Source of the DNA: Candidatus Manganitrophus morganii
Lineage (GTDB): Bacteria; Nitrospirota; Nitrospiria; SBBL01; Manganitrophaceae
DNA length: 64,000 nucleotides
Direction: 5' to 3'
Assembly: GCA_021651055.1 (NCBI GenBank)
Contig: JAJHOH010000001.1
Span: 1,736,001-1,800,000 of the forward strand
The notes under the pieces are model-generated. The model saw only the letters and a list, made by a program, of their open reading frames with translations. It made no database searches and had not been told where the DNA came from. Below, piece by piece: positions 33,617 through 52,473 of this stretch. The position numbers and the translations under genes are program-made. Position 1 is the first letter of the stretch. The number at the start of each line of letters is the position of its first letter.

Positions 33617-34708
33617 CTATAACGTCACATCTTGGACCGAGGGACGGCACGCCCCTTCCAGCGCCCGATGCAGATCGTCGGCGCGGCGCTCCCCGGTATG
33701 CGCCGACAGCGCCCGCTCGCGGGCCGATCGGGCGATCTTCGAGAGGCACTCCTCCGGCGATTCGATCGCCGCGATCGCCTCCTCGGCGCTTCGGGCGATC
33801 AAGATCTCCGTGCCCGGCTCGAAAAACTGGTCGAGCCCTTCCCAGAGGTCGCTTAAGAGCGGGACGCCGCAGGCGGCCGCTTCAAAGAGGCGTCCCGAGG
33901 GGCAATAGCCGCTCTCCACCATCGGCCGGCGGGTCACATTGAGCGACAACCGCGACGAGCAGTAAAAAACCGGATGATCGGGCGGGGGGATATGCCGAAC
34001 ATAGAAAAGATTGGGGGTCCAGGGAAAATCGTTCGGATATTGCGACCCCCCCAAAACAAACCGCCGGTGCGGAAGCCGCCGCGCCGGCGCGAGGAACAAC
34101 TGCTCGAGCGCCTCCTGCCGGTCGGCGGCATAGGTGCCAAGATAGGAGAGATCGGCCCGATAGGCTTCGGCCGGCGGAACAGGACGATGCGACGAAAGAT
34201 CGACGCAGCCGTAAAGCGGCGCCACCTGCCGCGCCCCCAGCCGCTTTTGAAGCTCGGTGAGGGCGGCCCCCCCGGCGTAACTTAAAACCAGATCGAAATC
34301 GCCGAGCCCTTGGGAGGGGATGTAGACGACCCGCTCGCCCGCCCGGATCCGCTCCAGCGTCACCGGGGTGTCGAGATCGTAAAAGACGCGGAGCCGCGCC
34401 GGCGAGGAGAGAACCAGGTCCGACGCGGCGACCGCATCGGGACAGTAGGAGGTCACCATCGCCACATCGGCGTCGCTCAACGCCGTCTGCGCCCGCCGCC
34501 AGGCTTCTTCCCAATGGGAATAGAGAACGAGATCGATGCCGGGCGAGCCGGTAAAATCGCGATGCGCGGCATAATAAGGAACATCCCGCTCGAAGAAGAG
34601 AATCCGCTCTCCCCGCCGCGCCAAGGCGCGGCCGAGCGCGCGCCAGAAGGTGGCGTGCCCGTTTCCCCAAGAGGAGCTGATCGTCAATCCGAAGATCACC
34701 AGCTTCAT
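33617..34708 (-). CDS. CgeB-like glycosyltransferase
   Basis: A 363-residue GT-B fold protein. It begins IFGLTISSSWGNGHATFWRAL, followed by FFERDVPYYAAHRDF; the C-terminal domain has LFEAAACGVPLLSDLWEGLD and a GTEILIARSAEEA segment, the donor-binding side of CgeB/Glyco_trans_1_2 proteins. It is closely similar in layout to the genes at 37929 and 39050, so the three are paralogues. It sits 17 bp upstream of the nucleotidyltransferase start. Confidence 0.82.
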   Translation of the reverse strand: MKLVIFGLTISSSWGNGHATFWRALGRALARRGERILFFERDVPYYAAHRDFTGSPGIDLVLYSHWEEAWRRAQTALSDADVAMVTSYCPDAVAASDLVLSSPARLRVFYDLDTPVTLERIRAGERVVYIPSQGLGDFDLVLSYAGGAALTELQKRLGARQVAPLYGCVDLSSHRPVPPAEAYRADLSYLGTYAADRQEALEQLFLAPARRLPHRRFVLGGSQYPNDFPWTPNLFYVRHIPPPDHPVFYCSSRLSLNVTRRPMVESGYCPSGRLFEAAACGVPLLSDLWEGLDQFFEPGTEILIARSAEEAIAAIESPEECLSKIARSARERALSAHTGERRADDLHRALEGACRPSVQDVTL

Positions 34709-34737
34709 TGATCTGATCTCCTCCCTTCAATTCTCCC

Positions 34738-35991: not shown

Positions 35992-36011
35992 CTTCTTTCC
36001 CGGCGCGAAGG

Positions 36012-36533
36012 TCAAAGAGATCGGTTCGATCTGATCGGGACCGGCCGGCCCGCCTCATAACGTTGCCGCACGTATTCGGTCAGAACACCGAACTGATAAA
36101 CGCTCGGATCGCTTCCCGGATGTCGCTCGACGACCCGCGCGACGGCGGGAGCGATGTGAAATCCCCGCGCCAGGATCAGATAGGCGATCGCGACCGTCGG
36201 CGCCCGGCCGATCCCCTGCCGGCAATGCAGATAGACGCGGCGTCCCTCTTGATGCCAGCGCCCGATCTGTTCCACCGCCGCCGCTAATCCCTCGACGGTC
36301 GGAACCCCGTCCCACCCCCCCTCCCCGCCATCCTGAATCGGGACGTTCGCCCAGGCGAGGCGGCGCACCCCTTGAAGGCACATCATGGCCGGCTCCCCTT
36401 CAATCAGGTGTTCCTGAAGGCTGAGGACGGCATTGATCCCCTCCCGGAACAACACCCGAAGATCGGCATCGGTCGGATAACACCCCAGCGCCAACGTCTT
36501 CTCATCATCGACCCAACAGAATTGAAATTCCAT
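36012..36533 (-). CDS. Dual-specificity phosphatase-like protein
   Basis: A 173-residue protein of the cysteine-phosphatase fold. The catalytic P-loop HCRQGIGRAP has Cys104 and Arg110 (C-x5-R), and Asp68 in PIQDGG is a candidate general acid. It is the size of a lone DSP domain. Substrate may be phosphoprotein, phosphoinositide or phospho-sugar. It lies 3 bp or less from the NRAMP-like gene and next to inositol-3-phosphate synthase, so dephosphorylation of inositol phosphate is attractive but unproven. Confidence 0.82.
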   Translation of the reverse strand: MEFQFCWVDDEKTLALGCYPTDADLRVLFREGINAVLSLQEHLIEGEPAMMCLQGVRRLAWANVPIQDGGEGGWDGVPTVEGLAAAVEQIGRWHQEGRRVYLHCRQGIGRAPTVAIAYLILARGFHIAPAVARVVERHPGSDPSVYQFGVLTEYVRQRYEAGRPVPIRSNRSL

Positions 36534-36582
36534 TCTTCTTGCCTTCCATTCGTAATTCGTAATTCCTCATTCCTAATTGCCC

Positions 36583-37932
36583 TCAAGCCGCTTCCTCATA
36601 ATAATCGAGCCCCGAATGATGCAGCACCTCTTCGCCGGCCAGAATCCGCAGCGTGTTGGTCAGCTTGAGATGCTGGACGAAGAGGTCATGCATCGGGGCG
36701 AGATCGGGCCGCGCCATCGGCGCTTTGAAATAAAACGAGAGCCACTCCTGCGTCCCTTTGAGCTTCGCCCGCCGGGCGAGATCCATGAAAAGAATCAGAT
36801 CGAGGACCACCGGCGCCGCCAGGATCGAATCGCGGCAGAGGAAGTTGATCTTGATCTGCATCGGCTGCCCCATCCAGCCGAAGATGTCGATGTTGTCCCA
36901 TCCCTCTTTGGCGTCGCCGCGCGGGGGATAATATTCGATCCGCACCTTGTGGTAGAGCGCGTTGTAGAGCTCGGGGTAGAGGCCGGAATCGAGGATGGAG
37001 CTCAAGACCGACGATTTCGTCACCTCCTTGGCATGGAAAGAGCCGGGATCGTCGAGGACCTCGCCGTCCCGGTTGCCGAGGATGTTCGTCGAAAACCACC
37101 CGCGCACCCCGAGCATCCGCGCCCGCAGGCCCGGCGCCAGGATCGTCTTCATCAAGGTTTGGCCGGTCTTGAAATCTTTCCCCGCGATCGGGACCATCCG
37201 CGCCCGGGCCGTCTCGGCGAGCGCCGGAATTTCCACCGAGGTATTCGGCGCCCCGTTCACATAAGGGATGCCGAGCCGGATCGCCGCATAGGCATAGATC
37301 ATCGAGGGGGAGATGTCGGGATCGTTCTCTTTCAATCCCTTCTCAAACGCTTCGATCGTCCGGTGAACTTCTTTCTGTTCCTGATAAATCTCGGTCGATC
37401 CGCACCAGACCATGACGAGACGGGAGAGGTCGTTCGCCGTCTTGAACTCCTCCATCTCTTTCATCAACGCCTCGGCAAGATCGATTTTCCGCCGCCCCTG
37501 TTTGACATGGGGGCCGCGCAAATTCCGGAGGAACTTCGGATCGAAGACGGCGGGAAGGGGCCGGACCGACCGGAGCTCTTCCCGCACCGCATTCAACTGC
37601 TCCGCCGGGAGGACCCCCGCCTTGATCGCCGCTTCATGGCCGTCGTCGGGGAAGATATCCCATCCGCCGAAGACCAGATCGGTCAGGGGGGCGAGCGGGA
37701 CGAGCTCCTTGATCCCTTTCCAGCGGGGCCGGGAGCGCTTCCCCAGCCGGACCCGCTCCATCTGCGTCAGCGAGCCGACCGGTTTCGCCAGCCCTTTGTT
37801 GATCAGGTGGACCCCCGCGATCAGCGTCGTCGAGACCGCGCCGCCGACCCCCGGAATCAAAACACCGAGTTTTCCGGAGGCGGGGGCGATGGCGCGACCC
37901 CCTCCTTTTTCTTCCCGTTTCACACGCTTCAT
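36583..37932 (-). CDS. Myo-inositol-3-phosphate synthase
   Basis: A 449-residue NAD-dependent enzyme that cyclises glucose-6-phosphate to inositol-3-phosphate. Seen: the Rossmann start LGVLIPGVGGAVSTTLIAG at about residues 22-40, DLVFGGWDIFPDD, and in the catalytic domain GKDFKTGQTLMKTILAPGL and NILGNRDGEVLDDP. Length is normal. Its ATG overlaps the stop of the upstream glycosyltransferase as ATGA. It supplies inositol, probably as a building block or acceptor for the cluster's product. Confidence 0.92.
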   Translation of the reverse strand: MKRVKREEKGGGRAIAPASGKLGVLIPGVGGAVSTTLIAGVHLINKGLAKPVGSLTQMERVRLGKRSRPRWKGIKELVPLAPLTDLVFGGWDIFPDDGHEAAIKAGVLPAEQLNAVREELRSVRPLPAVFDPKFLRNLRGPHVKQGRRKIDLAEALMKEMEEFKTANDLSRLVMVWCGSTEIYQEQKEVHRTIEAFEKGLKENDPDISPSMIYAYAAIRLGIPYVNGAPNTSVEIPALAETARARMVPIAGKDFKTGQTLMKTILAPGLRARMLGVRGWFSTNILGNRDGEVLDDPGSFHAKEVTKSSVLSSILDSGLYPELYNALYHKVRIEYYPPRGDAKEGWDNIDIFGWMGQPMQIKINFLCRDSILAAPVVLDLILFMDLARRAKLKGTQEWLSFYFKAPMARPDLAPMHDLFVQHLKLTNTLRILAGEEVLHHSGLDYYEEAA

Positions 37933-39053
37933 GATGCAACCCTACCCAAAGTGGTCGCCTCCGGCTCCGGCCGGCGGCGATTTAAAATCTCGCAGGCATA
38001 CCGTTCCAATTCCGCCGCCCGTTGAACGGCGGTATGCTCCGCCAGCACCCGGTCGCAGGCCCGCAGGCCAATGGCGCGCCGCGCCTCTTCGGGGATCTCG
38101 CGCAGAGTGCGGAGGGTCTCTTCGGGGGAGCGGGAGAGAAGAATCTCCTCCCCCGGCTTGAAAAAAGTCTCCAGCCCCGGCCAGTGATCGCTGATGATCG
38201 GCGTCGCGCAAGCGGCCGCCTCGAAGAGACGGACGCTCGGCGAATAGCCGGCCCGGATCATGTCGGCCCGGGTCACATTCAGTGTAAATCGCTGCGCATT
38301 GTAAAAGACGCGGTGGCGCGACGGCGGCAGATGCTCGATCCGGTCGACATTAGAAGGCCAGGAGAGGCTTTCGGGATATTTGGAGCCGGCGACGACGAAC
38401 GATCCCTCGCCCCATCGCCGCGCCGGCTCGATCAATAGACGATCGAGCGTCTCCTGCCGGTCGAGGCTGTAGGTCCCCATGTAGCCGAGCGACCAGGTCG
38501 GCTCGGCCTCCTCCGGGTAGTAAAGATCGGGATCGACCGAGCAGTACAACGGCCGGGCCATCGGCGATCGGTACTCCCGCTCCAGACGTTTTAAAATCGG
38601 ACCGCCGGTGAAGGAAAGATAGAGGTGATACCGCGGGATCAGCGCCTTGGAGAGGTAGTCGATTTCGCCGCGATCGAGCTTCGCGAGGGTCACCGGGGTG
38701 TCGATATCGTAAAACGCCGTCACCCCCCGCGCGGTGGAGGTCACCCACTCCCCGATCGCAATCCCCTGCGGAACGTACGATCCGACGATCACCAGATCGG
38801 CCTCTTCGACCTGTTCGGTGAAACGCTCTTTCAGCTCCTCCAGATTCTCATACAGTTCGAACCTCCCATGGCGCGGACGCGGGAGATCGCGGTTTTCGGC
38901 ATACCAGGGGACATTTCGTTCGAAGAAAGTGAAATCATGGCCCCGCGCGCGGAGCCCCCGGACCAGACTCCGGTAAGTGGTGGCATGTCCGTTCCCCCAG
39001 GAGGAGGTAATCGACAGGCCGAAGATCACGATCGACATCCTTGATCCGCTCAT
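37929..39053 (-). CDS. CgeB-like glycosyltransferase
   Basis: A 374-residue GT-B protein, the closest relative in the window of the gene at 33617: IVIFGLSITSSWGNGHATTY at the start, FFERNVPWYAENRDL, and C-terminal LFEAAACATPIISDHWPGLE with LLSRSPEE. ATG 39053 overlaps the upstream stop as ATGA; an internal ATG at 39038 would remove five residues. Together with its neighbours it would assemble an oligosaccharide step by step. Confidence 0.83.
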   Translation of the reverse strand: MSGSRMSIVIFGLSITSSWGNGHATTYRSLVRGLRARGHDFTFFERNVPWYAENRDLPRPRHGRFELYENLEELKERFTEQVEEADLVIVGSYVPQGIAIGEWVTSTARGVTAFYDIDTPVTLAKLDRGEIDYLSKALIPRYHLYLSFTGGPILKRLEREYRSPMARPLYCSVDPDLYYPEEAEPTWSLGYMGTYSLDRQETLDRLLIEPARRWGEGSFVVAGSKYPESLSWPSNVDRIEHLPPSRHRVFYNAQRFTLNVTRADMIRAGYSPSVRLFEAAACATPIISDHWPGLETFFKPGEEILLSRSPEETLRTLREIPEEARRAIGLRACDRVLAEHTAVQRAAELERYACEILNRRRPEPEATTLGRVAS

Positions 39054-40153
39054 GACATCCCCCCCGTCTGGACCGTTTCCCTCCCTTCGAGCAGCGCCTC
39101 CAGCTGCGCCGCCCGATGGGCGTAGGTATGCTCCGCCAAAATTCGCCGCCGCGCCGCTTCTCCGATGCCGCGGGCGCGCTCGGCGGTGAGCGCTCGAAGC
39201 TGCTCGGCTACCTCCAACCCATCCCGCGCGACGAGAACTTCCTCTCCCGGATTGAGGAAAAGTTCAATCCCTTCCCAGGCGTCGGTGATCAGACAGGCCG
39301 CCGCCCCCGCCGCCTCGAAGACCCGGGTCGCCGGAGAGAAACCGTTGCGCGCCATGCTCTCCCGGGTGATGTTCAGGACCGCCCGCGGGGTGCAGTTAAA
39401 AGCGTTGTGATCCCGCGTGTAGAGATGGCCGACGGCGTGAACATTCGGCGGCATTCCCTTGTCCCCCCATCCGCTCCCCGCCAGGAGAAACCGGGCGGCG
39501 GGGAGGGCCTCGGCCGCTTTGAGGAAAAACGCTTCGACCCGCGCCTCCCGGTCGGGAAGGCGGTTTCCGAGAAAGGCGAGCTCCCCTTCGAACCTCGGAT
39601 CGGGAGGGACCGGATGATGCGTCTCCGGATCGAGCGCATTGTAGACCGGCACACAGGCCCGCGCCCCGAGCGACCGATAGGCCCGCACCACCGGATCGCC
39701 GCCGCCGTAGGTCAAGATCAGATCATAATGGGGGATGAGCGATCGGAATGGATCGGCGGGATCTTTCCCGACCCGATCGAGGGTGGCGGCGGCATCGACG
39801 TCCCAGAAGATCACTTCTGTCCCGGGCCCGCGCATTTCAAGCACGGCCGACTCCAGAAGTTCATCGAAGACCCCGACGCCGCTCGCTTTGACGATCAGAT
39901 CGGCGCCGCGCGCCTGCGCCAGCGCCTTCGCCACGGCCGCCTCCTGGTTGGGATAGACGACCACCTCGGCCCACGGTGGATCGGGGATGTCCCGATGCGC
40001 CTGCCGGCCGTAGGCGTCCGGCTCATAAAAAGTGATCTGGTAGCCCCGCCGGTGCAGGGCGCGGATGATGCCGCGATAGTAGGTCGCCGCCCCGTTCCAA
40101 TAAGCGGAGACAAGGCTCGATCCGAAAAAGGCGATCCGGGGCCGCCGGTTCAT
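39050..40153 (-). CDS. CgeB-like glycosyltransferase
   Basis: A 367-residue GT-B protein: IAFFGSSLVSAYWNGAATYY, FYEPDAYGRQAHRDI and C-terminal VFEAAGAAACLITDAWEGIE then NPGEEVLVARDG. It shares the layout of its neighbours but is more divergent than the 33617/37929 pair. Both its ends overlap adjacent genes by four bases (ATGA), indicating translational coupling. Confidence 0.82.
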   Translation of the reverse strand: MNRRPRIAFFGSSLVSAYWNGAATYYRGIIRALHRRGYQITFYEPDAYGRQAHRDIPDPPWAEVVVYPNQEAAVAKALAQARGADLIVKASGVGVFDELLESAVLEMRGPGTEVIFWDVDAAATLDRVGKDPADPFRSLIPHYDLILTYGGGDPVVRAYRSLGARACVPVYNALDPETHHPVPPDPRFEGELAFLGNRLPDREARVEAFFLKAAEALPAARFLLAGSGWGDKGMPPNVHAVGHLYTRDHNAFNCTPRAVLNITRESMARNGFSPATRVFEAAGAAACLITDAWEGIELFLNPGEEVLVARDGLEVAEQLRALTAERARGIGEAARRRILAEHTYAHRAAQLEALLEGRETVQTGGMS

Positions 40154-41262
40154 GCGGGAACCTCCTTTTCTTCGGGTAGATTCAGACTCGCAAAAATCGT
40201 GAGGAGCTGATCGACTCGATGGGCGCAGGTATGCCGTGCCAGGATCGTTACACGGCCGTGGGCGGCCAGCGCTTCCGCAGAGGACCGATCGTTGAGGAGC
40301 ATTTTCAAATGCCGCTTCATCTCCTCCCCCGTCCGGGCGACGAGGAAGTCGGCGCCGGGGGCGAACAGCACCTCCCGGTCGTCCCAGGGGGTCGAGATCA
40401 TCGGGATGCCGCAGGCGAGCGCCTCGAAGGGGCGGATGGTCGGGATGCCGGGAAGAGCCCGAACATACGGCCGCCGCGGGATATGGACCGTCACCCGGAA
40501 GCGGGCGAAGACCTCCGGCACTTCATCGTTCGGAAGCCATCCGGCATAGCCGATCCCGGCCTCGACGAGGGCGCGGCGGCCTTCTTCGGGGTAGCGGACC
40601 CCGTGGACACGCGCATTGAGACCGAGCGCTTTGACCGGCTCCAAAAGGAAGGTGTGTAGCTCCTCGGTCCGCTCGTTGTCTCCCCAGTTGCCGATCCAGA
40701 CAAGATCCCCCTCCCGCTTCCCTTCGATTGGGCGAAAGAGGCGGGTGTCGGCCGCCTCATGCCAGGTCCAGGCGGCAGCCGCCCAGCCGCGGGAAAGATA
40801 GAGATCGCGGATCACCCGCCCGTAGGCGAGGACGCCGTCGTAATGGGCAAGATCGTACCGGGCCATCTCTTCCGGCGCGGTGACGCTTCGATGATGGGTG
40901 TCGTGGAAGAGAAGCCGGTAGCCTCTGCTGCGGGCGCGATGTTGTCCGATCCGCCCGACCAGATCGGGGGGATTCCATTCGTGGACCACGACGAGGTCGG
41001 CCCCGTCGAGCGCTTCATCGAGATCGATTGCGGCCGGATCGTAAAAAGTGCTTCGCAGCCCCGGGTAGGCCCGCTGAAAGCGGTCGATCGCCGCGGGCCC
41101 CTGCTCCGCGAGGAGGCTGCGGAGGCTCCACCCGTCGCGCGGCTCGAAGATGCGAAGTTCGTGGCCGCGCGCGATCAGCTCGCTCGCCACCCCGCGCAAG
41201 AAATGGGCGTTACCGTGGTTCCAATCCGAGATCAATGAGTGATAGAAGAGGACGATCCGCAC
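40150..41262 (-). CDS. CgeB-like glycosyltransferase
   Basis: A 370-residue GT-B protein beginning with RIVLFYHSLISDWNHGNAHF and containing EPRDGWSLRSL, and a C-terminal PFEALACGIPMISTPWDDRE donor-site region. Start is GTG 41262, fixed by AGGAGG seven bases upstream. The gene begins inside the last codons of the GT4 gene (31-bp overlap) and ends in an ATGA overlap. Confidence 0.83.
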   Translation of the reverse strand: MRIVLFYHSLISDWNHGNAHFLRGVASELIARGHELRIFEPRDGWSLRSLLAEQGPAAIDRFQRAYPGLRSTFYDPAAIDLDEALDGADLVVVHEWNPPDLVGRIGQHRARSRGYRLLFHDTHHRSVTAPEEMARYDLAHYDGVLAYGRVIRDLYLSRGWAAAAWTWHEAADTRLFRPIEGKREGDLVWIGNWGDNERTEELHTFLLEPVKALGLNARVHGVRYPEEGRRALVEAGIGYAGWLPNDEVPEVFARFRVTVHIPRRPYVRALPGIPTIRPFEALACGIPMISTPWDDREVLFAPGADFLVARTGEEMKRHLKMLLNDRSSAEALAAHGRVTILARHTCAHRVDQLLTIFASLNLPEEKEVPA

Positions 41263-42368
41263 GTAAATGCCTCCTGTTCGTTTATCATCTTTTGATACAG
41301 CATGAGATACCCCGCCGCCATCCGGTCGGACGTATAGCAGTCGGCCTGGGCGCGGGCCCGGCAGGCGATCGACTCCCGCAGAAGAGGATCGTCGATCAAT
41401 CGCTGGAGGACGGCCCGGAGCGCCTCCGGATCATCGGGAGGGACGAACAGCGCCGCCTCTCCCCAGACCTCCCGAAGACTCGGCGGATCGCCGAGAACGA
41501 GCGCGCAGCCCGATAATGCCGCTTCGAGGGGGGCGAGACCGAACGGTTCATACCGGGCCGGGAGGACATAAATTGCCGCCCGCGAAAGCCAGCCGGCGAG
41601 TGCGGCCGCGGAGAGCCGGCCGAGCGGTCGGAGGGCGTTGAACGCGACTTCCTTCCCATCGGGATAACGCGACTCTCCCGCGACAAAAACCGGCCAAGAG
41701 AGATCGTGTGCGATCCGGTCGAGCAGGGCGACATTCTTCGCCTCATCCCAGAGCCGCCCCGCGGTGAAGATCAAAGGCTCCTTCGGATGCGCCGTAAAGA
41801 ACGAGGCCTCTCGTCCGTTGGGGATCACCCGGTCTCTCTGCAGCGGACCGTAATATTTCCGGAGCTCGGCGAGCATCGCCCCGGTCGGCGCAACGACACA
41901 ATCGGCCTTCTGCAGCCCTCGTGAAACCGCTTCACGGTAGCGGTCCCAGGCGGCGGGCGCCTCCTCTCCCTTCACACTCCGCCACCAGGAGAGGACACAG
42001 GAATGCCCGGCGACCAGGACCGGCGCTTTCCAAGGAAGCGCCCCGTGCGCGTAGCCGTTGAGATGGATCAGATCGGGATGAATTTGCCCCTCCAAATCGA
42101 GCAGCCATTCGCCCGCCCGGGCGACCTCCTCCCACGGCGACTCCATCCACTCCAGCTTGAACGCGCTCGGATAAAGCGTGAGATTCGGCATCGCTTCGGC
42201 TTCGGCCCGCTGCTCCGGTCGAATCGGCGCCCCCATCGTCGCAAGGGATACCGCCACGCCGTGCCGGCCGAGGGCGCGAGCCAGCTCCAGCGCATAGGTC
42301 CAGACCCCGCCGACGGTGTCGGCCGTCATCAAAATGCGGCGGGGCGCTTTTTCATGATGAATCGCCAT
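41232..42368 (-). CDS. GT4-type glycosyltransferase
   Basis: A 378-residue GT-B enzyme. Near its start is ADTVGGVWTYALELARAL, the glycine-rich donor-domain loop of GT4/glycogen-synthase-like enzymes, and later PARYEPFGLAPLEAALSGCA with the E-x7-E type catalytic signature. It uses a nucleotide sugar, donor unknown. ATG 42368 is chosen; the long open frame upstream is shadow of the radical SAM gene, whose stop lies 26 bp away. No clear ribosome binding site is seen. Confidence 0.85.
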   Translation of the reverse strand: MAIHHEKAPRRILMTADTVGGVWTYALELARALGRHGVAVSLATMGAPIRPEQRAEAEAMPNLTLYPSAFKLEWMESPWEEVARAGEWLLDLEGQIHPDLIHLNGYAHGALPWKAPVLVAGHSCVLSWWRSVKGEEAPAAWDRYREAVSRGLQKADCVVAPTGAMLAELRKYYGPLQRDRVIPNGREASFFTAHPKEPLIFTAGRLWDEAKNVALLDRIAHDLSWPVFVAGESRYPDGKEVAFNALRPLGRLSAAALAGWLSRAAIYVLPARYEPFGLAPLEAALSGCALVLGDPPSLREVWGEAALFVPPDDPEALRAVLQRLIDDPLLRESIACRARAQADCYTSDRMAAGYLMLYQKMINEQEAFTCGSSSSITH

Positions 42369-42394
42369 AAAGATCAAAAGACGGAAGGGGGGAG

Positions 42395-43708
42395 TCAAGC
42401 CGACCGTCTTCCGCGTTCTCCTGTATTCGATTCCAGCATCTGTAACGGAATGGGCCGTTGTTCCTGAATATCGCTGAATGCTTCGTACTCTCGAAGATAG
42501 TGCGCGTGCGCCCGCTCCCACGCTTGCTCGTCTGGGAGGCCCCATTTGCGGACGTAGTCGGGGGAGCCGGGGTAGGGAAAGAGCGGAACCGGCTTGTTCG
42601 CCCAGACCCCCTCTTTCGCCAGACGCTCCCGCCACGCTTCGATCGCCGCCGGATCGTCCATGTGGGCTTCGAGGAGGTTCGCCTGGACAAAGGGGACCTG
42701 CCGCTTGGCATCGATCAGACGCGCGACGATTTCGTCGGTGGAGAGCCGGCTCGGTTTATCGAGCCACTTTCTCCCCTCCGGGCTGATGCTTTCGACCCCC
42801 GCTTCGATCGACACGCAGCCGGCCCGGCCGAGGAGCGCCAGCATCGGCGGGCTCCAGAGATCGATCCGGGTCTGGACGCCGAAGCGAATCCCCCGCTCCG
42901 CGATCCCCTCCAGAAGCGGCTTGCTCGGGAGGAAGATCTCGTCGATGAAGTAGAGATAGGTCGCCCCCGCGTCGATGAGGCCGTCGAGTTCTTCCAAGAT
43001 GACCGGCAGGGGGCGCTTGCGATAGTCGTCCCGGAAGTTCTCCTTCGCGCAGAAGGTGCAGTGATAGGGGCAGCCGCGCGAGGTCTCCATCTCGGCGCCG
43101 GGGCCGTCGGGGGGGGCCTCGAACCGATGGTGATGGTGCGGATGCCGGGCGAGGCTCTCGCGCGACCAGCGGAGCGGCGGCAGGGCGGCCATGTCGCAGG
43201 CATGCGGCCCCCCCTGGACGCGGATCTGGTCTCCCGCGCGGTAGCAGACCGACGGGACCTCGTCCCACGCCCCGATCGGTTTCCGGATGAGAATCGGCAA
43301 GATCTCCTCCGCTTCGCCGAGGATCACGGCGTCGACCCCGAGCTTCTTCAAGGTGATGGTCGGGGTTGTCGAGCCGTGCGGGCCGACGGCGATTAATGTT
43401 CCGCCGGCCGGCCGCAGATCGGAAACCGTTTCGAGCGGGATCCGCAGCTCCGGCGGCGCGCAGCGCCAGAAGAGATAGCTCGGCGCGGTGGTGATCACGG
43501 AAAAATCAGGGGCGAAGGCCGCCACGCGGGCGCGGATCTCTTCCCGCGAAAGCCCCTCCGCCAAGCCGTCGATGAGGAGGACCTCCGCGCCCTCTTCCTC
43601 CAGCAAGGCCTTGGCGTAGCCGTATTCCAACGGGAGATGGACCTCGCGGCAGCCGAAGTAGATGCTTCCGTCGAAGGTCCAATGGGGATTGACCAGCGCG
43701 ACCTTCAT
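42395..43708 (-). CDS. B12-binding-domain radical SAM enzyme
   Basis: A 437-residue protein. The N-terminal 140 residues form a Rossmann-like cobalamin-binding domain (VALVNPHWTFDGS; GTLIAVGPHGS; VILGEAEEILPIL), but the DxHxxG cobalt-ligating motif is absent, so cobalamin, if bound, lacks a protein His ligand. The radical SAM cluster motif C-x3-C-x2-C is Cys213, Cys217, Cys220 (RGCPYHCTFC), followed by IEAGVESISPEG. I believe it matches TIGR04295, 'B12-binding/radical SAM, rhizo-twelve system'. It would perform a radical methylation or rearrangement on a sugar or cyclitol; unproven. ATG 43708 overlaps the upstream epimerase stop. Confidence 0.87.
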   Translation of the reverse strand: MKVALVNPHWTFDGSIYFGCREVHLPLEYGYAKALLEEEGAEVLLIDGLAEGLSREEIRARVAAFAPDFSVITTAPSYLFWRCAPPELRIPLETVSDLRPAGGTLIAVGPHGSTTPTITLKKLGVDAVILGEAEEILPILIRKPIGAWDEVPSVCYRAGDQIRVQGGPHACDMAALPPLRWSRESLARHPHHHHRFEAPPDGPGAEMETSRGCPYHCTFCAKENFRDDYRKRPLPVILEELDGLIDAGATYLYFIDEIFLPSKPLLEGIAERGIRFGVQTRIDLWSPPMLALLGRAGCVSIEAGVESISPEGRKWLDKPSRLSTDEIVARLIDAKRQVPFVQANLLEAHMDDPAAIEAWRERLAKEGVWANKPVPLFPYPGSPDYVRKWGLPDEQAWERAHAHYLREYEAFSDIQEQRPIPLQMLESNTGERGRRSA

Positions 43709-44823
43709 GCCGCCCCCTTTCCGGCGGCGCGTCCGCTCCGTACCTGCGACGCGCTGCGCGCGCGGGCCCCGCGAAGCGCCGGCTTTTCGGAGCGGGCCTC
43801 CCGCAGCCATTCGTAGAGCAACCGAACCCCTTTCTCAACGCCGACCCGGGGCGACCAGTCGGTCGCCGCTTGAAATCGGCGGGTGTCCGAAACATAGTAG
43901 CGCTGATCGGCGAGCCGCCACGGCTCGAAATGCGTCGTCAGCGGCCCCTCTCCGATGGTTTCGATCAGATGGATCAACTCCAAGAGACTGGTCGTGTTCG
44001 ACGGCCCGCCGCCGATATTAAACGCCTTTCCCGAGAGGGAGTCGATCCGCCCTTGGGCGAGGAGGAACGCATCGATCAGATCTTCGACATAAAGAACGTC
44101 TCGAACCTGCCGGCCGTCGCCGAAGAGGGTGATCGGCCGGCTCTCCATCGCGCGGATCATGAAATGGGCGACCCATCCCTGATCTTCGGTCCCGAACTGA
44201 TGCGGACCGTAGATACAGCTCATCCGGAAGACCGCCGCGGGGATGCCGTACGTGCGCGCGTAGTCGAGGACGTATTGATCGGCTGCCCCTTTCGAGCAGC
44301 CGTAAGGGCTGTGAAATTCGAGCGGCCGGGATTCGCCGATGCCGTAGGTCCGGATCTCCGGCGCTTCCGGCTCGTAACGTTTGATCCCCTGCCGAAGGGG
44401 GAGATTCTCCAACTCGCCGTAGACTTTATTTGTCGAGGTGAAGAGGAGGGGGGGAGGGGTCTCCAAGACGCGGATCGCTTCGAGCAGATTCAGCGTCCCG
44501 CGCGCGTTGACCTCGAAATCGTCGATCGGCTCGGTAAGGCTCGTCGTGACCGCCACCTGCGCGGCGAAATGAAAAACGGAGGCGGCCTGCCGGACGGCCC
44601 GCTGCAGCGCAAATACGTTGCGCACGTCGGCCACCGTCACCTGCAGGCGGCTTCCGTGCCGCTCGCGCAGCCAACGCAGGTTCTGCTCCACCCCGGCGCG
44701 CGAGAGATTGTCGAAAATCAAAACCGGGCGTCCCGCCTGAAGAAGGCGGTGCGCGAGGTTCGTCCCGATGAAGCCGGCCCCTCCCGTAATCAATACGGGT
44801 CGTTCCTTTTTTCCGTTGATCAT
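43705..44823 (-). CDS. NAD-dependent sugar epimerase/dehydratase
   Basis: A 372-residue extended SDR enzyme: PVLITGGAGFIGTNLAHRL at residues about 8-26 and the catalytic YGCSK (Tyr-x3-Lys) in HSPYGCSKGAADQY. It resembles CDP/UDP-sugar epimerases or dehydratases. Product cannot be read from sequence. ATG 44823 overlaps the stop of the upstream epimerase as ATGA. The C-terminus is Arg/Ala-rich. Confidence 0.87.
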   Translation of the reverse strand: MINGKKERPVLITGGAGFIGTNLAHRLLQAGRPVLIFDNLSRAGVEQNLRWLRERHGSRLQVTVADVRNVFALQRAVRQAASVFHFAAQVAVTTSLTEPIDDFEVNARGTLNLLEAIRVLETPPPLLFTSTNKVYGELENLPLRQGIKRYEPEAPEIRTYGIGESRPLEFHSPYGCSKGAADQYVLDYARTYGIPAAVFRMSCIYGPHQFGTEDQGWVAHFMIRAMESRPITLFGDGRQVRDVLYVEDLIDAFLLAQGRIDSLSGKAFNIGGGPSNTTSLLELIHLIETIGEGPLTTHFEPWRLADQRYYVSDTRRFQAATDWSPRVGVEKGVRLLYEWLREARSEKPALRGARARSASQVRSGRAAGKGAA

Positions 44824-45938
44824 CGCGTCAATCCCCGGGCAGCGAGTTCCGCGCGGGCATCCGACACACGATCGATCGCCACCTGCCCCTTCAACCATGA
44901 CGCCAACTCGACCAACCCTTCCTCCAATGTGACGCGAGGCTCGTACCCGAGGACCTTTCGGGCGCGGGTGATATCGGCGAAGCAGTGCCGGATATCACCG
45001 GCCCGGTATTGTCCGGTGATCTCAGGCTGAATCCCCTCTTTTCCGAGCGCCGCCGCCATCCGGTCGGCCACCTCCCGAATCGTATAAGAGCGGCCGCTTC
45101 CGATGTTCAACGCCTCCCCGGCCGCCTCCGGCACTTCCAAGGCCAGCCGGCAGGCGCGCGCCACATCATAGACGCTGACGAAATCGCGCCGCTGGAGGCC
45201 GTCCTCAAAAATCAACGGCCGATTGCCGTTCAGCAAACGGCTGGCGAAAATCGCCAAGACGCCGGTATAAGGATTGGAGAGGGCCTGCCGGGTCCCGAAG
45301 ACATTGAAGAAGCGGAGCGCGACCGCCGGGAAATGATAGGCGCGCCCGATCATCAGACAGATCCGCTCTTGATCGTATTTGGAGAGGGCATAAACCGAAG
45401 AGAGACAAGGCGGCTTCGTCTCCGGCGTGGGGATCGGATCGAGGATTTCTCCTTCGGCATTCCGGACCTCCCATTCGGAGGCCTTGAGTTGCAGCAGACT
45501 CCGTTCCGACTCGGGCATCAGGCGACCGTCGGCCGCCCGGTAGAGCCCCTCGCCGTACAAGCTCATGCTCGATGCCACGATCAGCCGCTCCACCGGCCGC
45601 TCAATCAACGCTTCCAGGAGGACGGCGGTGCCGAGGTTGTTCACCTCGGTGTAACGCGCGATCTCGTACATGCTTTGGCCGACGCCGACCGCCGCCGCAA
45701 AATGGTAGACGGCATCGACCCCTTCCAAGGCGCGCCGGACCGCCGTCCGGTCGCGAACGTCTCCCACGATCAATTCCACATCGGGATGTAGATAATCGGG
45801 CCGCCCCGCGCGGGGGCCGTGGACCTGCTCCGAAAGATTGTCGAGGGCGCGGACGCGATAGCCGTGCGCGAGGAGTTCATCGGCCAGATGAGAGCCGATG
45901 AAACCCGCGCCGCCGCTGATGAGAATCTGCTTCTTCAT
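44820..45938 (-). CDS. NAD-dependent sugar epimerase
   Basis: A 372-residue extended SDR: ILISGGAGFIGSHLADELL, VYHFAAAVGVGQSM and catalytic YALSK in SVYALSKYDQE. It is a paralogue of the gene after it and resembles UDP-glucose 4-epimerase-type enzymes. It is the first gene of the long leftward run; AAGGAG lies upstream of ATG 45938, so the cluster promoter should be in the 45.94-46.4 kb gap. Confidence 0.87.
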   Translation of the reverse strand: MKKQILISGGAGFIGSHLADELLAHGYRVRALDNLSEQVHGPRAGRPDYLHPDVELIVGDVRDRTAVRRALEGVDAVYHFAAAVGVGQSMYEIARYTEVNNLGTAVLLEALIERPVERLIVASSMSLYGEGLYRAADGRLMPESERSLLQLKASEWEVRNAEGEILDPIPTPETKPPCLSSVYALSKYDQERICLMIGRAYHFPAVALRFFNVFGTRQALSNPYTGVLAIFASRLLNGNRPLIFEDGLQRRDFVSVYDVARACRLALEVPEAAGEALNIGSGRSYTIREVADRMAAALGKEGIQPEITGQYRAGDIRHCFADITRARKVLGYEPRVTLEEGLVELASWLKGQVAIDRVSDARAELAARGLTR

Positions 45939-46429
45939 GTAGGACTCCTTACCTTCTTAAAAATGGGTTCATCCAACTTGCGAGTTGCGCAAAACTAAAA
46001 GCAAGAGATATGCCCCGAACCTTCACGCCGACACCACGGCATGGAACAGAGAAAGACCGAAAGGTTATCAACAGAAAGATTAACAGGATGTCCACAAGAA
46101 GGATGTGAGGCGCACTACACGAAGAAGCGCCGCAACACGAAATCGATCCCTCCGTAATCAGAGATGAAGTTCAAAACGCCTCTTCCTCTACCGAGAATCG
46201 AATGGCTCTCCTCACAATTTATTTTGTCATGGCGCGAGGTCATGTATCGCCGCCCCGCTTCCACCGTCTCTGCAATCCCGCTTACATTGCCACAACATTC
46301 GAAAAAGATTTGCAGAGAGTTCAACAGACCCTTCACCTCGGAAAAATTCTTTCAGCGGAAAAATAGTGCTCCTTCCGGATGGAAGAGGAGCGGCGTCGGA
46401 TTTGCATTCTCTACCGCAGCAGGACAGGC
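45939..46429. other. Divergent intergenic region upstream of the glycan cluster
   Basis: About 490 bp between the first epimerase and the divergent glycosidase. It is less GC-rich than its neighbours. It must hold the main leftward promoter and the glycosidase promoter, but I find no clear hexamers. Short frames at 46115-46336 and 46164-46429 look like chance. I searched it by eye for the missing N-terminal part of the glycosidase and did not find it. Confidence 0.5.
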
Positions 46430-47410
46430 GTGAGCGTACCGATGATCGAAGCGATCAAGTTCTGGAATGAGCCGAACAATCTTTCTCATTGGGATTTTAC
46501 GATCGATCCGGAGTGGAAAGAGTACGTGCGGATGACCCGGTCGGCGGCGGAGCGGGTGCGCGCCCTCTGCCCTTCCTTACGCCGGGTGCTGGGAGGGATC
46601 TCGCCGATCGATCCGAGCTTCATCGCCCTTCTCGGCCGGCACGGCTTGCTGGCATCGGTCGACGTGGTGGCGGTCCACGGCTTTCCGCTCGACTGGAATC
46701 ACTGGCAACTCGAAGAGTGGCCGAAGAAGATCGAAGCGATCGAGAAGGTGACCGACCTTCCGGTTTGGGTCACCGAGGTGGGGGTCTCCACCTTCGGGGC
46801 GGATGAAGTTCAACGCTTTGGATTGCAGCGGACGACGGCGCTTTTATTGGGGCGGGTCGAGCGGCTCTTCTGGTACAGCCTTCTCGATCTCCCCCCGGCC
46901 TGGGAGGCGACGACCCGCCACAAAGAGAGCGAGGGAAGTTCATATTACCGGCATTTCTATATGGGATTGGTTCGGGACGACGGCACGCCGAAACCGGCGC
47001 TCGATTGTTTCAACCCCGAGATGGGGATCTGCCAGTGGTTTCACTTTCAGGATCACCGCCTTGAATCGGCGGTCGCCTGGCTGCGGCGGATGGGGGTGAA
47101 AAAACTCCGGACCGGGTTGAGCTGGGCCGATTGGCACCGGCCCGGCGCCGTCGACTGGTTCGATCATCAAATGGCGCAACTCGCCGAATTCGACCTGACC
47201 CTTACCCTCTGCTTCACCCCCCCCTCGCGGGGGCGCCTCCCGCATTACACGAGTCCTCCCTTGGTGCCGGAGGAGTTTGCCGGATTCGCCGAGTGGGTGG
47301 TGCGGCGGTATGTCCTCGGTGAGAAAAAGGAGACCGACATGCCGCGGCGGATTCTCGATCCGATGAAGCCCGAGGGGGACGGCATCGCCCCGGTCAGATC
47401 GGATCGTTGA
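46430..47410 (+). CDS. Clan GH-A-like glycosidase, apparently circularly permuted
   Basis: A 326-residue TIM-barrel glycosidase resembling proteins annotated beta-xylosidase. It starts almost at strand 4: IKFWNEPNNLSHW with acid/base Glu14. Then come VVAVHGFPLDWNHW, VTEVGVSTFG with nucleophile Glu116, and LFWYSLLDLPPAWE. At residue about 195 a new start-like segment, MGICQWFHF, leads into GVKKLRTGLSWADW (222-235) and LTLTLCFTPPSRG, the strand 1-2 elements that normally come first. GTG 46430 has AGGA five bases before it; ATG 46442 is possible. The end overlaps the convergent ABC gene by 17 bp. Alternatives: a chimaera of two damaged copies. Confidence 0.65.
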   Translation: MSVPMIEAIKFWNEPNNLSHWDFTIDPEWKEYVRMTRSAAERVRALCPSLRRVLGGISPIDPSFIALLGRHGLLASVDVVAVHGFPLDWNHWQLEEWPKKIEAIEKVTDLPVWVTEVGVSTFGADEVQRFGLQRTTALLLGRVERLFWYSLLDLPPAWEATTRHKESEGSSYYRHFYMGLVRDDGTPKPALDCFNPEMGICQWFHFQDHRLESAVAWLRRMGVKKLRTGLSWADWHRPGAVDWFDHQMAQLAEFDLTLTLCFTPPSRGRLPHYTSPPLVPEEFAGFAEWVVRRYVLGEKKETDMPRRILDPMKPEGDGIAPVRSDR

Positions 47411-49196
47411 GAGAGGCCAGCGGGGTGGAAGAGGCGCTTGCGAGAAGCCCCTGCGTCTGCCGCCGGACGAGAGAGGCGTAATAGCCGTCAGCCTTCATCA
47501 GGGCTTCGTGATCGCCGCTCTCGATGATCTCCCCCTCCTTGAGCACCAAGATTCGATCGGCGCCGACAACGGTAGAGAGGCGGTGGGCGATGACGAAGGT
47601 GGTCCGTCCTTTGACCAGCCGCGCCAGCGCTTCTTGAACCAGCGCCTCCGACTCCGCATCGAGCGCCGAGGTCGCTTCATCCAAAATGAGGATCGGAGGA
47701 TTCTTCAGCAGCGCGCGCGCGATCGCGATCCGCTGCCGCTCTCCCGCCGAGAACCGGCCTCCCCGCTCCCCCACCAGGGTCTCATATCCTTCCGGAAGAC
47801 GCGCGATGAATTCGTGGGCATAGGCCGCCTGGGCCGCTTCGATGATCTCGCGCTGCGAGGCGCCCGGTTTGCCGTAGGCGATGTTGTTTCGGACCGAATC
47901 GTTGAAGAGCAGCGCCTCCTGAAGGACCACGCCGATCTGCCGCCGGAGCGATCGCTGCTTGAGGGTCCGCAGATCGGCCCCGTCGACGAGGATCGCGCCG
48001 GCGGTCGGGTCGTAGAGCCGCTGGAGCAGCGCCATGAGGGTCGTCTTGCCGGCGCCGCTCGGGCCGACGAGGGCGACCATCTCGCCCGGCCGGACATAGA
48101 GGTCGATCCGGCGAACGATCGGTTTTTTTTCATTGTAGGCAAAGCCGACACCGGAGAAGAGGACCTCCCCGCGGAGCGATTCGACTTCCCGCGCGTTCGG
48201 CGGATCGGCCAGCCGGTCCTGCGCGTCGAGAATCGCGTAGATCGTCTGGAGAGAGACCGAAGCGCGCCGGAGGGTTTGGTAAATCCCGGTGAGACCCTGG
48301 ACCGGTCCGAAGAGGCCGCCGACGTAGCCGAGAAAGGCGACGAGTGTACCGAGGGTCATTTCGCCCCGGAGAATCAGAACGCCGCCGAAGGCGATCGCCG
48401 CGATCCGGGCCAGCATGACGATCCCGTTCTTCGCCGCGCCGACGCCGGAATCAAAACCGACCCCGCGCGCCACCACCGCGTTCGCTTCACGGACGCCGCT
48501 CAGGAAACGTCGCTTCTCCTCATCTTCCATCGCAAAGCTCTTCACGGTCATGATGCCGGAGAGGACTTCATTGAAGCGCGAGTAGATCTTGGCCCAGCGG
48601 TCGAGCAGCGTCCGCTCCCGCCGGGTCTGCGGCTCGGCCGCCCAGGCGCCGATCAACGCCGGGAGCGGGGTGAAGGCGAGCACGACCCACGAAAGTCGCC
48701 CGTCGAGCCGGAGCATCAGAACAAAAGAAAGGGCGAGATAGACCAGCGCCGGCAGGACATTAAAAGCGATTTCGCTGAGCGCTTGGAGAAACCCCTGGAT
48801 TCCCCGGTCGAGCTTGGTCATGATCCCGCCGACGCTTTCTTCTTTGTGGAAGGCCAGGGGGAGCGAATGGAGGCGGTCGACCGTCGCTTCCAGCAGCCCG
48901 TAGTGGACCCCGAGCCGGACGCGCCAGGTGAGCCAGCTGGAGAGGGCGAGGATCGCTTCATGGCCGAGCCCCAGCGCCAGCAGCCCGCCGACGGCGAGCC
49001 CCACCGTCTGGAAGGTCCCCCCGCCGCCGAGCTCGTCGAAGAGATATTTGAGAACCAGCGGCTCCACCGCGCTCAGCGCCGCCCCTCCCAGCGTCAATCC
49101 GAGGATCACGAATACGACGCCGCGGAAAGGGCGGATAAAGATCAGCGCCCGCCGTCCTTGCGAAAGCCACTCCGGATTTGTTGTTTGATCTCTCAT
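47394..49196 (-). CDS. ABC exporter, fused membrane and ATPase domains
   Basis: A 600-residue half-transporter: six N-terminal transmembrane helices, then an ATPase with Walker A GPSGAGKTT, signature FSAGERQRIAIARALL and Walker B ILILDEATSALD, plus the H-loop His in VIAHRLSTV. This is the MsbA/lipid-exporter-like type B exporter class; it would work as a homodimer. Location in the glycan cluster suggests flipping of the finished lipid- or inositol-linked glycan across the inner membrane. Confidence 0.9.
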   Translation of the reverse strand: MRDQTTNPEWLSQGRRALIFIRPFRGVVFVILGLTLGGAALSAVEPLVLKYLFDELGGGGTFQTVGLAVGGLLALGLGHEAILALSSWLTWRVRLGVHYGLLEATVDRLHSLPLAFHKEESVGGIMTKLDRGIQGFLQALSEIAFNVLPALVYLALSFVLMLRLDGRLSWVVLAFTPLPALIGAWAAEPQTRRERTLLDRWAKIYSRFNEVLSGIMTVKSFAMEDEEKRRFLSGVREANAVVARGVGFDSGVGAAKNGIVMLARIAAIAFGGVLILRGEMTLGTLVAFLGYVGGLFGPVQGLTGIYQTLRRASVSLQTIYAILDAQDRLADPPNAREVESLRGEVLFSGVGFAYNEKKPIVRRIDLYVRPGEMVALVGPSGAGKTTLMALLQRLYDPTAGAILVDGADLRTLKQRSLRRQIGVVLQEALLFNDSVRNNIAYGKPGASQREIIEAAQAAYAHEFIARLPEGYETLVGERGGRFSAGERQRIAIARALLKNPPILILDEATSALDAESEALVQEALARLVKGRTTFVIAHRLSTVVGADRILVLKEGEIIESGDHEALMKADGYYASLVRRQTQGLLASASSTPLASLNDPI

Positions 49197-49325
49197 GAAA
49201 TCGATCCTCTACTCCCTTAAAATCATCCGTCTCCCGGAAGTTCAAAGGGAATAGGCTACCAGATCGACCGGCGGCTGCAATTGGGAATCGGCCTTAGTTT
49301 CGGCGGGGAAAAGGAGATAAAAAGG

Positions 49326-49357
49326 GACCTTTGCACCCGAAGGGCGATGCAAAGGTC
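49326..49357 (-). terminator. Rho-independent terminator after the UXS gene
   Basis: GACCTTTGCA (49326-49335) and TGCAAAGGTC (49348-49357) form a 10-bp stem. On the minus strand the stem is followed by CCTTTTTATC and a second T-rich stretch. It separates the decarboxylase gene from the ABC exporter gene. Confidence 0.82.
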
Positions 49358-49409
49358 ACCGGATGTGAGGGGTTAGATGTCTTTGGCGAGGGAGGAGATC
49401 AGGCGGTGC

Positions 49410-50459
49410 TTAGCCGGCCCGGCGCAGCGCGCCGGTCGGCAGGCGTGAGGCCGCATGGCCGTTTTGTTTCGTTCCGGCCGCTCGAATCGGAAGGGTCTTT
49501 TTCGAAAAGACATATTCTTCAAAATAGGCGATTGTCTTCTTGAGTCCTTCTTCGAGCGGGATCTTCGGCTCCCAAGAAAGCAGTTTCCCCGCCAAGGTTA
49601 TGTCGGGGCGGCGCTGTGTCGGATCATCCTGAGGGAGGGGCTTATGAACGATCTTGGAGCGGGACCCGGTGAGGGAGATGACCTTCTCGGCCAGCGCCAG
49701 CACGGTAAACTCCTCCGGATTTCCCAGATTCACCGGCCCGGTCACCCCCGGCGTCTCCATCATCCGGATGATCCCTTCGATCAGATCATCGACGTAGCAG
49801 AAGGAGCGGGTCTGGTCGCCGTCTCCGTAGACCGTGATCTCATTTCCTTGAAGCGCTTGAAGGATGAAGTTGCTCACCACCCGTCCGTCATTGGGGGCCA
49901 TGGCGGGTCCGTAGGTGTTGAAGATCCGGACGATCCGGATATCGATCCGGTACTGGCGGTGGTAATCCATCATCAGGGTCTCTGCCACCCGCTTTCCCTC
50001 GTCATAACAGCTTCGAGGACCGATCGGGTTGACGTTTCCCCAATAAGACTCCGGCTGGGGGTGGACTTCGGGGTCTCCATAAACCTCCGAGGTGGAGGCT
50101 TGGAGGATGCGGGCTTTGGTCCGTCGCGCCAATTCCAGCATATGGGTGACGCCGAGCACATTCGCCTGAACGGTGCGGACCGGGTCGAACTGATAATGGA
50201 CCGGCGAAGCGGGGCAGGCAAGATTGTAAATCCGATCGACCTCCAGATCGATCGGATGAACGATGTCGTGCCGGATCGCTTCAAACCGGGGATGATCCAG
50301 GAAAGAACGGATGTTCTCCTTTGACCCTGTGAAGTAATTGTCCAGGCAGAGGATCTGATGCCCCTGCGCGAGGAGCCGCCCGCAAAGATGCGAGCCGAGA
50401 AAACCGGCGCCGCCCGTGACCAAAATTTTCTTTCGCTCTGGATCAAAGCTTGAATGCAT
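49410..50459 (-). CDS. UDP-glucuronate decarboxylase-like SDR
   Basis: A 349-residue extended SDR highly typical of UDP-xylose synthase: [32 protein letters not shown], catalytic YDEGK in [17 protein letters not shown], and FNTYGPAM. It would convert UDP-glucuronate to UDP-xylose with NAD recycling. This fits with a xylosidase-like gene nearby. It has its own terminator and a short C-terminal Ala/Gly tail ([13 protein letters not shown]). Confidence 0.9.
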
Positions 50460-50715: not shown

Positions 50716-52473
50716 TCACAATGTTTGCAAGGAAACGGAACCGAGTTCGCCATGAAGGGCGGCCCTGTAACGCTGAGAGAGAGATTCGAACCGCGCTGCA
50801 TCCGGGGCGGGACCGAGCGCCTCCGCGGCCAGAGTCGCGTACCCGAGGCGATAGGCCAGGTAGGCCACTTTATAAAAGTGCAGCCGGTCGAGGAGACGCG
50901 GGTCGTTTGCGAGCGCCTGATACCGGCCGAGAAATCGTTCCTCGTCGCGGAAACTGAAGCCGAACTCGACACAACAGCCGGCGAGATCCCAGGCGATCTC
51001 CTGACCGCCTGGGAAAAAATGATCGTCATGATGATCCACGCCGTCGGTTTTCAAGTATCCCGCGGAAGTTTGAAGCCACTCGTGTGGGAACATCCTTCCG
51101 TCGATCGCCGCCGGCCGCTCCTTTTCAAAGAGGGCTCGAAATCGCCCGAGCCGATCCAACGCCCCCTCCCATCCTTTTCCCAGCCCTTCGCTGAGATTGA
51201 TCCGCATCATTTCGATCATCTCATCGAAAGACCGGCGGCGGGAGGCCGGGAACGTCTCCCTAAGAAACGCGAGATAACGCGCCATCGTCTCGATCAACGA
51301 GGAATCGGCTTCCCCTCCGGAAACCGGAGCGCCTTCTACATACTCCATCACGAGAAAGCCGTGCGCGAGACCGACCACCGGCGGGCCCCATCCGGCGCCG
51401 GCCAATCGCTCCGCGCGTTCGCGTTTCGATCGGCCATAACGTCCGAGGCCGGCGAACTTGAGCAGGCGCGGTTTCTCTTTTGATTCGAGCGACAGATACT
51501 TCCGCCGCTCATGTTGAGGCTGAACCGGAGGATAGCTCAATTCATTTTGATAAACGTGAGAGCGCCATCGGCCGCCGGAAAAATCAACAAACGGGCCTTG
51601 CGGCAGGGAGGAGAAATATTTCTCTCGATTCAGAAAAATCTCCTCGAAGGAAGTGGCGATCTTCCGGTGTCTCGGCCAGCGCCCCCGCGCCGCCTCGGAG
51701 CGGAAGCGGCTTCCGTCCGGCTCCCAACTCGGAAAGAAGAAAATTCGGTCGTCGGCCACACCGAGTTCGGAAAGCTTTCCCGCGACGGAGGTCATCGAAG
51801 AACCGCTCAGGCCGGGCCCTTCATCGATGATGAGAAAATAAGACCCCTTCTTCTGAACAAGCTCTTTTTCAAAAGAGGAAGAGAGGCGGAGGAATCGGTC
51901 GAACGGATGCCCGCGCGGCCGGACCGTGTAAGAGCAGATCGAAAAACCGTGGGCTTCAAGGGGGGCGGCCACCACCGCGGAGAGGCTGGTGCCAATGCTC
52001 CGGATGCCGATGCAGACCGCCGGCTGCGGACCGACTTCTTGAACCAATCGAAGCGCCGACTCCAGATAGGTTTCTGGATAGAGGCCGTAATAGGCATATC
52101 CTTCCGGAACACGCTGGGCGATTTTTGGAGGAAGAGTGGAGAAAAGCGGGTCTTTAAGCGCGCGGCCGAGCCGGGACGGTATGTCATCGGTCTGAAATTG
52201 CGCGCTCCGGGCGCTTCGCGCGCTTCGATAGAAAAGACGTCCGATCAATCGGCTCGCCTGCCGAAGCCGCCGTAAAAGGGGACCCTCCGAATCGAAATCG
52301 GGAGAGAGGGCGTCGGCGACGGCCGACTCGAAGACCCCCCACTCGATCAAAAGCTCCACGATCCGATCATGATCGCGGAATCCTTCTTTTTCCAAAGAGA
52401 AGAAAAGCGCTTGAAGTTGAGCAAGTTGTTCGGAGGCATCCACCACCTCTTCTTGTCCGCCGTAGACGATCAT
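50716..52473 (-). CDS. Predicted phosphoribosyltransferase-kinase fusion, unknown function
   Basis: A 585-residue protein in two parts. Residues about 100-290 look like a type I phosphoribosyltransferase: CIGIRSIGTSLSAVV then LIIDEGPGLSGSSMTSVAGK (215-230), the PRPP-binding loop pattern. Residues about 335-580 resemble an aminoglycoside-phosphotransferase-like kinase: RLLKFAGLGRYG, hinge LVMEYVEG (374-381), then TDGVDHHDDHFFPG (476-489) and IAWDLAG (493-499) as catalytic and metal loops. This pairing is not one I know as a named family. Start ATG 52473 has GGGAGG upstream. It follows nicotinate phosphoribosyltransferase on the same strand, hinting at nucleotide chemistry. Confidence 0.65.
   Translation of the reverse strand: MIVYGGQEEVVDASEQLAQLQALFFSLEKEGFRDHDRIVELLIEWGVFESAVADALSPDFDSEGPLLRRLRQASRLIGRLFYRSARSARSAQFQTDDIPSRLGRALKDPLFSTLPPKIAQRVPEGYAYYGLYPETYLESALRLVQEVGPQPAVCIGIRSIGTSLSAVVAAPLEAHGFSICSYTVRPRGHPFDRFLRLSSSFEKELVQKKGSYFLIIDEGPGLSGSSMTSVAGKLSELGVADDRIFFFPSWEPDGSRFRSEAARGRWPRHRKIATSFEEIFLNREKYFSSLPQGPFVDFSGGRWRSHVYQNELSYPPVQPQHERRKYLSLESKEKPRLLKFAGLGRYGRSKRERAERLAGAGWGPPVVGLAHGFLVMEYVEGAPVSGGEADSSLIETMARYLAFLRETFPASRRRSFDEMIEMMRINLSEGLGKGWEGALDRLGRFRALFEKERPAAIDGRMFPHEWLQTSAGYLKTDGVDHHDDHFFPGGQEIAWDLAGCCVEFGFSFRDEERFLGRYQALANDPRLLDRLHFYKVAYLAYRLGYATLAAEALGPAPDAARFESLSQRYRAALHGELGSVSLQTL

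Follow-up and report, generated by a model that had tools for sequence, protein, structure and literature searches.

The window, the whole 64,000-nucleotide stretch of the Candidatus Manganitrophus morganii genome that was analysed, contains a gene that we named PRTK. The gene begins a mostly same-strand block, and a glycan cassette fills positions 31997-50459 (Table 1). The open reading frame given in the original prediction was exact (50716-52473, minus strand, 585 amino acids). PRTK is a real gene under purifying selection and not a chance reading frame; its homologs align end to end, from an N-terminal M-x-V-Y-G/R to the C-terminus, with 31-94% identity, and dN/dS against three congeners was 0.20-0.23 (0.030/0.129, 0.194/0.959 and 0.344/1.481). 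Promoter and terminator scans stayed at or below chance level.

Table 1. Features of the PRTK locus (positions in the window, or residues of the PRTK protein where stated).
Feature	Position	Strand	Basis or remark
TIGR04290 methyltransferase, cassette far end	31997..32752	-	392.8 bits, cut-off 300
Sugar nucleotidyltransferase	32796..33599	-	PF00483
Glycosyltransferase GTa	33617..34708	-	PF13524
DSP/PTP-type phosphatase	36012..36533	-	PF00782
myo-Inositol-1-phosphate synthase	36583..37932	-	PF07994, PF01658
Glycosyltransferase GTb	37929..39053	-	PF13524
Glycosyltransferase GTc, best-conserved cassette marker	39050..40153	-	
Glycosyltransferase GTd	40150..41262	-	
GT4 glycosyltransferase	41232..42515	-	PF13439/PF13692
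B12-binding radical SAM protein TIGR04295	42395..43708	-	696 bits, cut-off 400
NAD-dependent epimerase (SDR1)	43705..44823	-	
NAD-dependent epimerase (SDR2)	44820..45938	-	
Glycosyl-hydrolase-fold protein	46379..47410	+	PF11790 just above cut-off; 'beta-xylosidase' in other records
ABC exporter	47394..49196	-	PF00664 + PF00005; conserved in cassettes
UDP-glucuronate decarboxylase-like SDR (UXS)	49410..50459	-	PF16363/PF01370; also in other cassettes
PRTase-kinase fusion gene PRTK, 585 aa, ATG start	50716..52473	-	ORF, homologs, purifying selection, AF2 model
APH/choline-kinase-fold domain (supported), residues ~275-585	50719..51651	-	fold search, profile match, motifs
Kinase-half sites	beta3 Lys 339; hinge LVMEYVEG about 374-381; WD 495-496 (residues)		
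Type I PRTase domain (supported), residues ~117-276	51646..52125	-	fold search, loops, L039 PF00156 match
PPi loop GIRSIG	residues 156-161		
Flexible loop TVRPRGHPFDR	residues 183-193		
PRPP loop DEGPGLSGSS	residues 217-226		

No family in Pfam or NCBIfam matched the PRTK protein even at E 10, and a PDB sequence search with the single protein gave no match. An AF2 model built with 12 homologs reached a pLDDT of 86.7 and a pTM of 0.88. The earlier view that no named family joins a phosphoribosyltransferase (PRTase) to a kinase in this way agrees with the family scans, the structure prediction, the fold search and the motifs, and no single known family was found over the full length. PRTK is a new family that combines known folds inside an uncharacterised cassette; its domain combination is absent from the protein-family libraries searched. 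The suggestion of a conflict system fared less well. PADLOC and PHROGs models gave no match to PRTK and searches of phage and viral-contig collections returned no relatives, so that a defence or phage role has no support from these searches.

A fold search with the whole model showed the kinase half only, and residues 1-303 were therefore folded alone (AF2, pLDDT 86.0) and searched separately. Residues 8-113 form a mostly helical N-terminal extension, and type I PRTases matched over about residues 125-276. The best structural match was PyrR (Z 9.6, rmsd 4.0, 142 residues), followed by the PRPP synthetase 3mbi (Z 9.3, rmsd 2.7); UPRT and HGPRT gave Z around 8-9, the latter with a Foldseek E of 7e-4. 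The top matches were mostly PRTases (Z 7.5-9.6 over about 120-146 residues). By itself this match does not settle the fold, given its moderate Z-scores and the values of up to 8.5 obtained for some periplasmic binding proteins. The assignment is strengthened by the placement of the PRPP motif, by the alignment of GIRSIG with the PyrR loop and by a distant homolog with canonical features (L039, described below).

The PRPP-binding-like loop of the original prediction was recovered in this fold: LIIDEGPGLSGSS spans residues 214-226, after strand 212-216 and entering helix 225-236. It has the composition that we used to define the PRPP motif (13 residues, four hydrophobics, D-D/E and T/S-G-x-T/S, located after a core strand), though it exceeds the standard DDxxxTGxT by one residue. 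DEGPGLSGSS is kept in nearly all homologs, with SGTS in L038 and DEGPGATGET in L034 as variants. GIRSIG aligns with the PyrR PPi loop GIRTGG, and the pair of PPi and PRPP loops aligned in a profile comparison (P 4.7e-4); in single-sequence comparisons with APRT and PyrR the loops aligned with weak statistics. Across 16 homologs, G156, R158 and G161 of the PPi loop, T183, R185, P186, G188 and R193 of the flexible loop, and D217, E218 and the remaining PRPP loop are invariant. PRTK thus shares with the type I PRTases of PF00156 (HGPRT, PyrR, UPRT) the predicted fold, the PPi loop and the canonical position of an acidic PRPP loop, but differs from them in its longer loop, its N-terminal extension of ~110 residues, its fused kinase and the lack of a Pfam match. 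The window protein did not match at the PF00156 gathering cut-off and L034 (E 0.031) fell below it; because only the distant homolog L039 passes, we call PRTK a PRTase-fold relative and not a PF00156 member. For residues ~117-276 the model supports a type I PRTase fold in which the PPi and PRPP loops are both intact, and, given the invariance of the residues in all three loops, this half looks active.

PyrR, the best structural match, is itself a PRTase-fold regulator. The PRTase half might then be a PyrR-like sensor of PRPP (or a nucleotide), with catalysis confined to the kinase half, whose aspartates are invariant and which would phosphorylate a cassette sugar or cyclitol at times of high PRPP. 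We regard such a sensor as unlikely, because the PPi loop, the five flexible-loop positions and D217-E218 are nearly invariant, as in a working transferase, and a phosphatase is a recurrent partner, with a HAD enzyme fused in L039.

Residues 275-585 matched choline kinases and aminoglycoside phosphotransferases in the PDB, including LicA (Foldseek E 3e-7) and 3csv (best VIA Z 19.1, rmsd 3.6, 266 residues). A profile search by sequence also matched this half to LicA (E 0.0024). The kinase-like half and its hinge LVMEYVEG had been foreseen correctly. A catalytic pattern DHHDDHF/IAWDLAG had been proposed as well: the kinase fold stands, whereas DHHDDHF is not the catalytic loop. Alignments with LicA and L039 place the putative catalytic aspartate at D458 (DGRMFPHEW) and the putative metal-binding aspartate at D477 (LKTDG), and IAWDLAG corresponds to the structural 'WDLA' motif of choline and APH kinases. 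PRTK shares with LicA and other APH-like small-molecule kinases the fold (Z up to 19), the catalytic and metal aspartates and the WDLA motif. It differs from them in a conserved DHHDDH insert, in giving no PF01636 match, and in Glu 465, which in the LicA alignment takes the position of the Mg-binding asparagine and is nearly invariant (Lys in L003). A profile comparison of PRTK with the APH proteins of the window's own genome was not significant.

The structural model supports an APH/choline-kinase fold for residues ~275-585. Judged by its conserved residues, the kinase is probably active but atypical; its activity is less certain because the Mg-binding asparagine appears to be replaced. That replacement, together with the exchange of the beta3 lysine for arginine in several members, could also point to an active PRTase joined to a degenerate kinase that binds the glycan acceptor or a nucleotide allosterically. 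Against this, D458, K475, D477, H481, W495 and D496 are all invariant in the 16-member alignment; we regard such a pseudokinase as unlikely.

The distant homolog L039, a protein of 970 residues (4388-7300 of its locus) from an Acidobacteriota genome, fuses a PRTase and a kinase-like region to a C-terminal HAD phosphatase (PF08282, E 2.3e-9). Its PRTase region scores above the PF00156 cut-off (E 1.8e-7), and its PRPP motif, VVDDHPNTGLT, is canonical; the kinase motifs DGRM..EEW...KVD are retained. No further copy of this three-part type was found in 199 genomes of the same phylum or in plasmids.

The cassette beside PRTK passes both curated cut-offs of TIGR04290 and TIGR04295, the two hypothetical equivalogs with which NCBIfam marks such cassettes. 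PRTK, for which NCBIfam lacks a model, is added here as a member. Although the cassette is a biosynthetic one, its glycosyl-hydrolase-fold protein belongs to the best-conserved members. An Nramp-type (Mn/Fe) transporter gene (PF01566, 34738-36015) lies between the GTa and phosphatase genes of the window, in a host lineage that is manganese-oxidising; a tblastn reference search did not show it in the cassettes of other groups.

Full-length relatives of PRTK occur in at least eight bacterial phyla. The gene is present in four Ca. Manganitrophus genomes, that of the window among them, and a DNA scan of MAGs recovered relatives in Gemmatimonadota, Acidobacteria, Chloroflexi, Bacteroidota, Bdellovibrionota and Planctomycetota. 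Others are located on megaplasmids of Sinorhizobium, Rhizobium, Ciceribacter, Azospirillum and Roseomonas. When the cassette genes around PRTK were mapped by tblastn at about 30 loci, about 14 lineages outside Manganitrophus had three or more of them, the partners being TIGR04290, TIGR04295, glycosyltransferases, inositol-phosphate synthase, UDP-sugar enzymes, a phosphatase and the ABC exporter. PRTK belongs to many, though not all, TIGR04290/TIGR04295 cassettes and is usually co-located with them.

This distribution bears on the role in NAD or nucleoside salvage that had been proposed from the adjacency of pncB and a PF04008 gene. Both genes are on the same strand as PRTK and adjacent to it in the window and in the PRTK-bearing Manganitrophus relatives, as expected of a salvage or modification enzyme acting with them. 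They adjoin PRTK only in this genus, however, and beside none of the relatives outside it, where the glycan cassette is found instead. The Manganitrophus strain GAC4 keeps pncB and PF04008 (96-99% identity), but its PRTK and cassette are both lost. We rejected the salvage role, which is very improbable on these grounds; adjacency to pncB within one genus was a misleading guide to the pathway, and PRTK probably acts in decorating an uncharacterised oligosaccharide and not in NAD or nucleoside recycling.

The loss in GAC4 (L061, 8009-9790) comprises a large internal deletion in PRTK and a separate cassette deletion of ~17 kb that removed most of the UXS-TIGR04290 interval. UXS is intact between the scars and, like pncB and PF04008, 96-99% identical to the window copy. 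That both disappeared in distinct deletion events is consistent with a functional dependence, albeit in a single case. Among 200 Gemmatimonadota genomes, PRTK was present in 6, TIGR04290 in 8 and both in 5 (Fisher p 1.3e-7, with genomes treated as independent, though they are not). Nearly all genomes with an intact PRTK in a 26-genome panel also have GTc and TIGR04290, and in two (G098, G174) PRTK and the cassette co-occur unlinked, on different contigs or far apart. PRTK was found with no detected cassette in G059, G390 and G072, the last with the gene in two pieces. Four genomes, some of them drafts, have the cassette and no PRTK (G157, G207, G225, G461), so PRTK is not essential to every version of the cassette. 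In the PRTK-less Gemmatimonadota cassettes examined (L049 of G225, L050 of G157 and L051 of G207), we noted that the slot between the TIGR04290 and glycosyl-hydrolase genes of L049 is occupied by another reading frame.

A histidine phosphatase gene lies near PRTK in about 15 loci and, in Alphaproteobacteria and several other groups, replaces the DSP phosphatase of the window. In a Bacteroidota locus outside the cassette (L013), the histidine phosphatase gene (6413-7030) directly abuts PRTK (7031-8830). Alpha-ribazole phosphatase models were among the matches of the Azospirillum histidine phosphatase, below cut-off. In a Bdellovibrionales genome, a gene near PRTK (L014, 4160-5926) codes for a HAD hydrolase in fusion with a HerA-like (DUF87) region.

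There is precedent for PRPP-dependent ribosylation in glycoside biosynthesis. In the ribostamycin/butirosin pathway, BtrL transfers ribosyl phosphate from PRPP to a cyclitol glycoside and BtrP then removes the phosphate; the cluster brings together a cyclitol-forming enzyme, glycosyltransferases and a phosphatase. The same kinds of genes are clustered in the PRTK cassette, an analogy at the level of gene linkage. We know of no kinase fusion in the BtrL/BtrP system. In ter-linked and other predicted nucleoside-like pathways, too, PRTase modules are combined with further enzymes by fusion or gene clustering; PRTK differs from these in matching no Pfam PRTase family and in its operon context. Searches of a limited literature collection for the cassette families, the PRTase-kinase fusion and the ribostamycin precedent gave no relevant paper, and we found no description of the cassette product.

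Our preferred reading, to which we assign a probability of roughly 0.4, is that PRTK acts as a bifunctional tailoring enzyme in the pathway to an uncharacterised, probably inositol-containing, oligosaccharide, with PRPP-dependent ribosylation, dephosphorylation and a kinase step. The PRTase half would use PRPP to place ribosyl-5-phosphate on a hydroxyl group of a glycan or cyclitol intermediate of the cassette, and the neighbouring phosphatase, of the histidine type in most cassettes, DSP in the window and HAD in L039, would strip the 5-phosphate. The kinase half may phosphorylate the acceptor or the product and so activate, trap or protect it, while export of the product would fall to the ABC exporter. 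That three phosphatase families are linked to PRTK or its relatives supports the need for a dephosphorylation step. Against this reading, not every protein with a type I PRTase fold need be a transferase, regulators such as PyrR being an example, and the phosphatase of the window comes from a different family than in most cassettes.

The UXS and nucleotidyltransferase genes of the cassette point to pentose chemistry, and a PRPP synthetase is the second structural match of the PRTase half. PRTK could on this basis make an activated pentose donor for the cassette glycosyltransferases by PRPP synthetase-like chemistry, its kinase half phosphorylating a sugar and its PRTase-fold half handling pyrophosphate. 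We find this donor role highly doubtful, as the PRPP loop is of the transferase type and an APH-type kinase transfers the gamma-phosphate and not pyrophosphate.

More speculatively than the tailoring role itself, a widely transferred and hitherto unrecognised pathway may lead to an inositol oligosaccharide that is ribosylated and perhaps also phosphorylated, with a single fusion enzyme responsible for both the addition of ribosyl-5-phosphate from PRPP and the phosphorylation. PRTK would then represent a new enzyme family and the product a new class of natural product or cell-surface glycan in S. meliloti, Azospirillum and the Mn-oxidising Manganitrophus. With PRTK as the likely PRPP-using component, a pentose or pentose phosphate on the glycan becomes a specific, testable prediction, and the search for the product gains a starting point. 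The cassette occurs in tractable bacteria, including S. meliloti 1021, which carries it on pSymB at about 242-260 kb.
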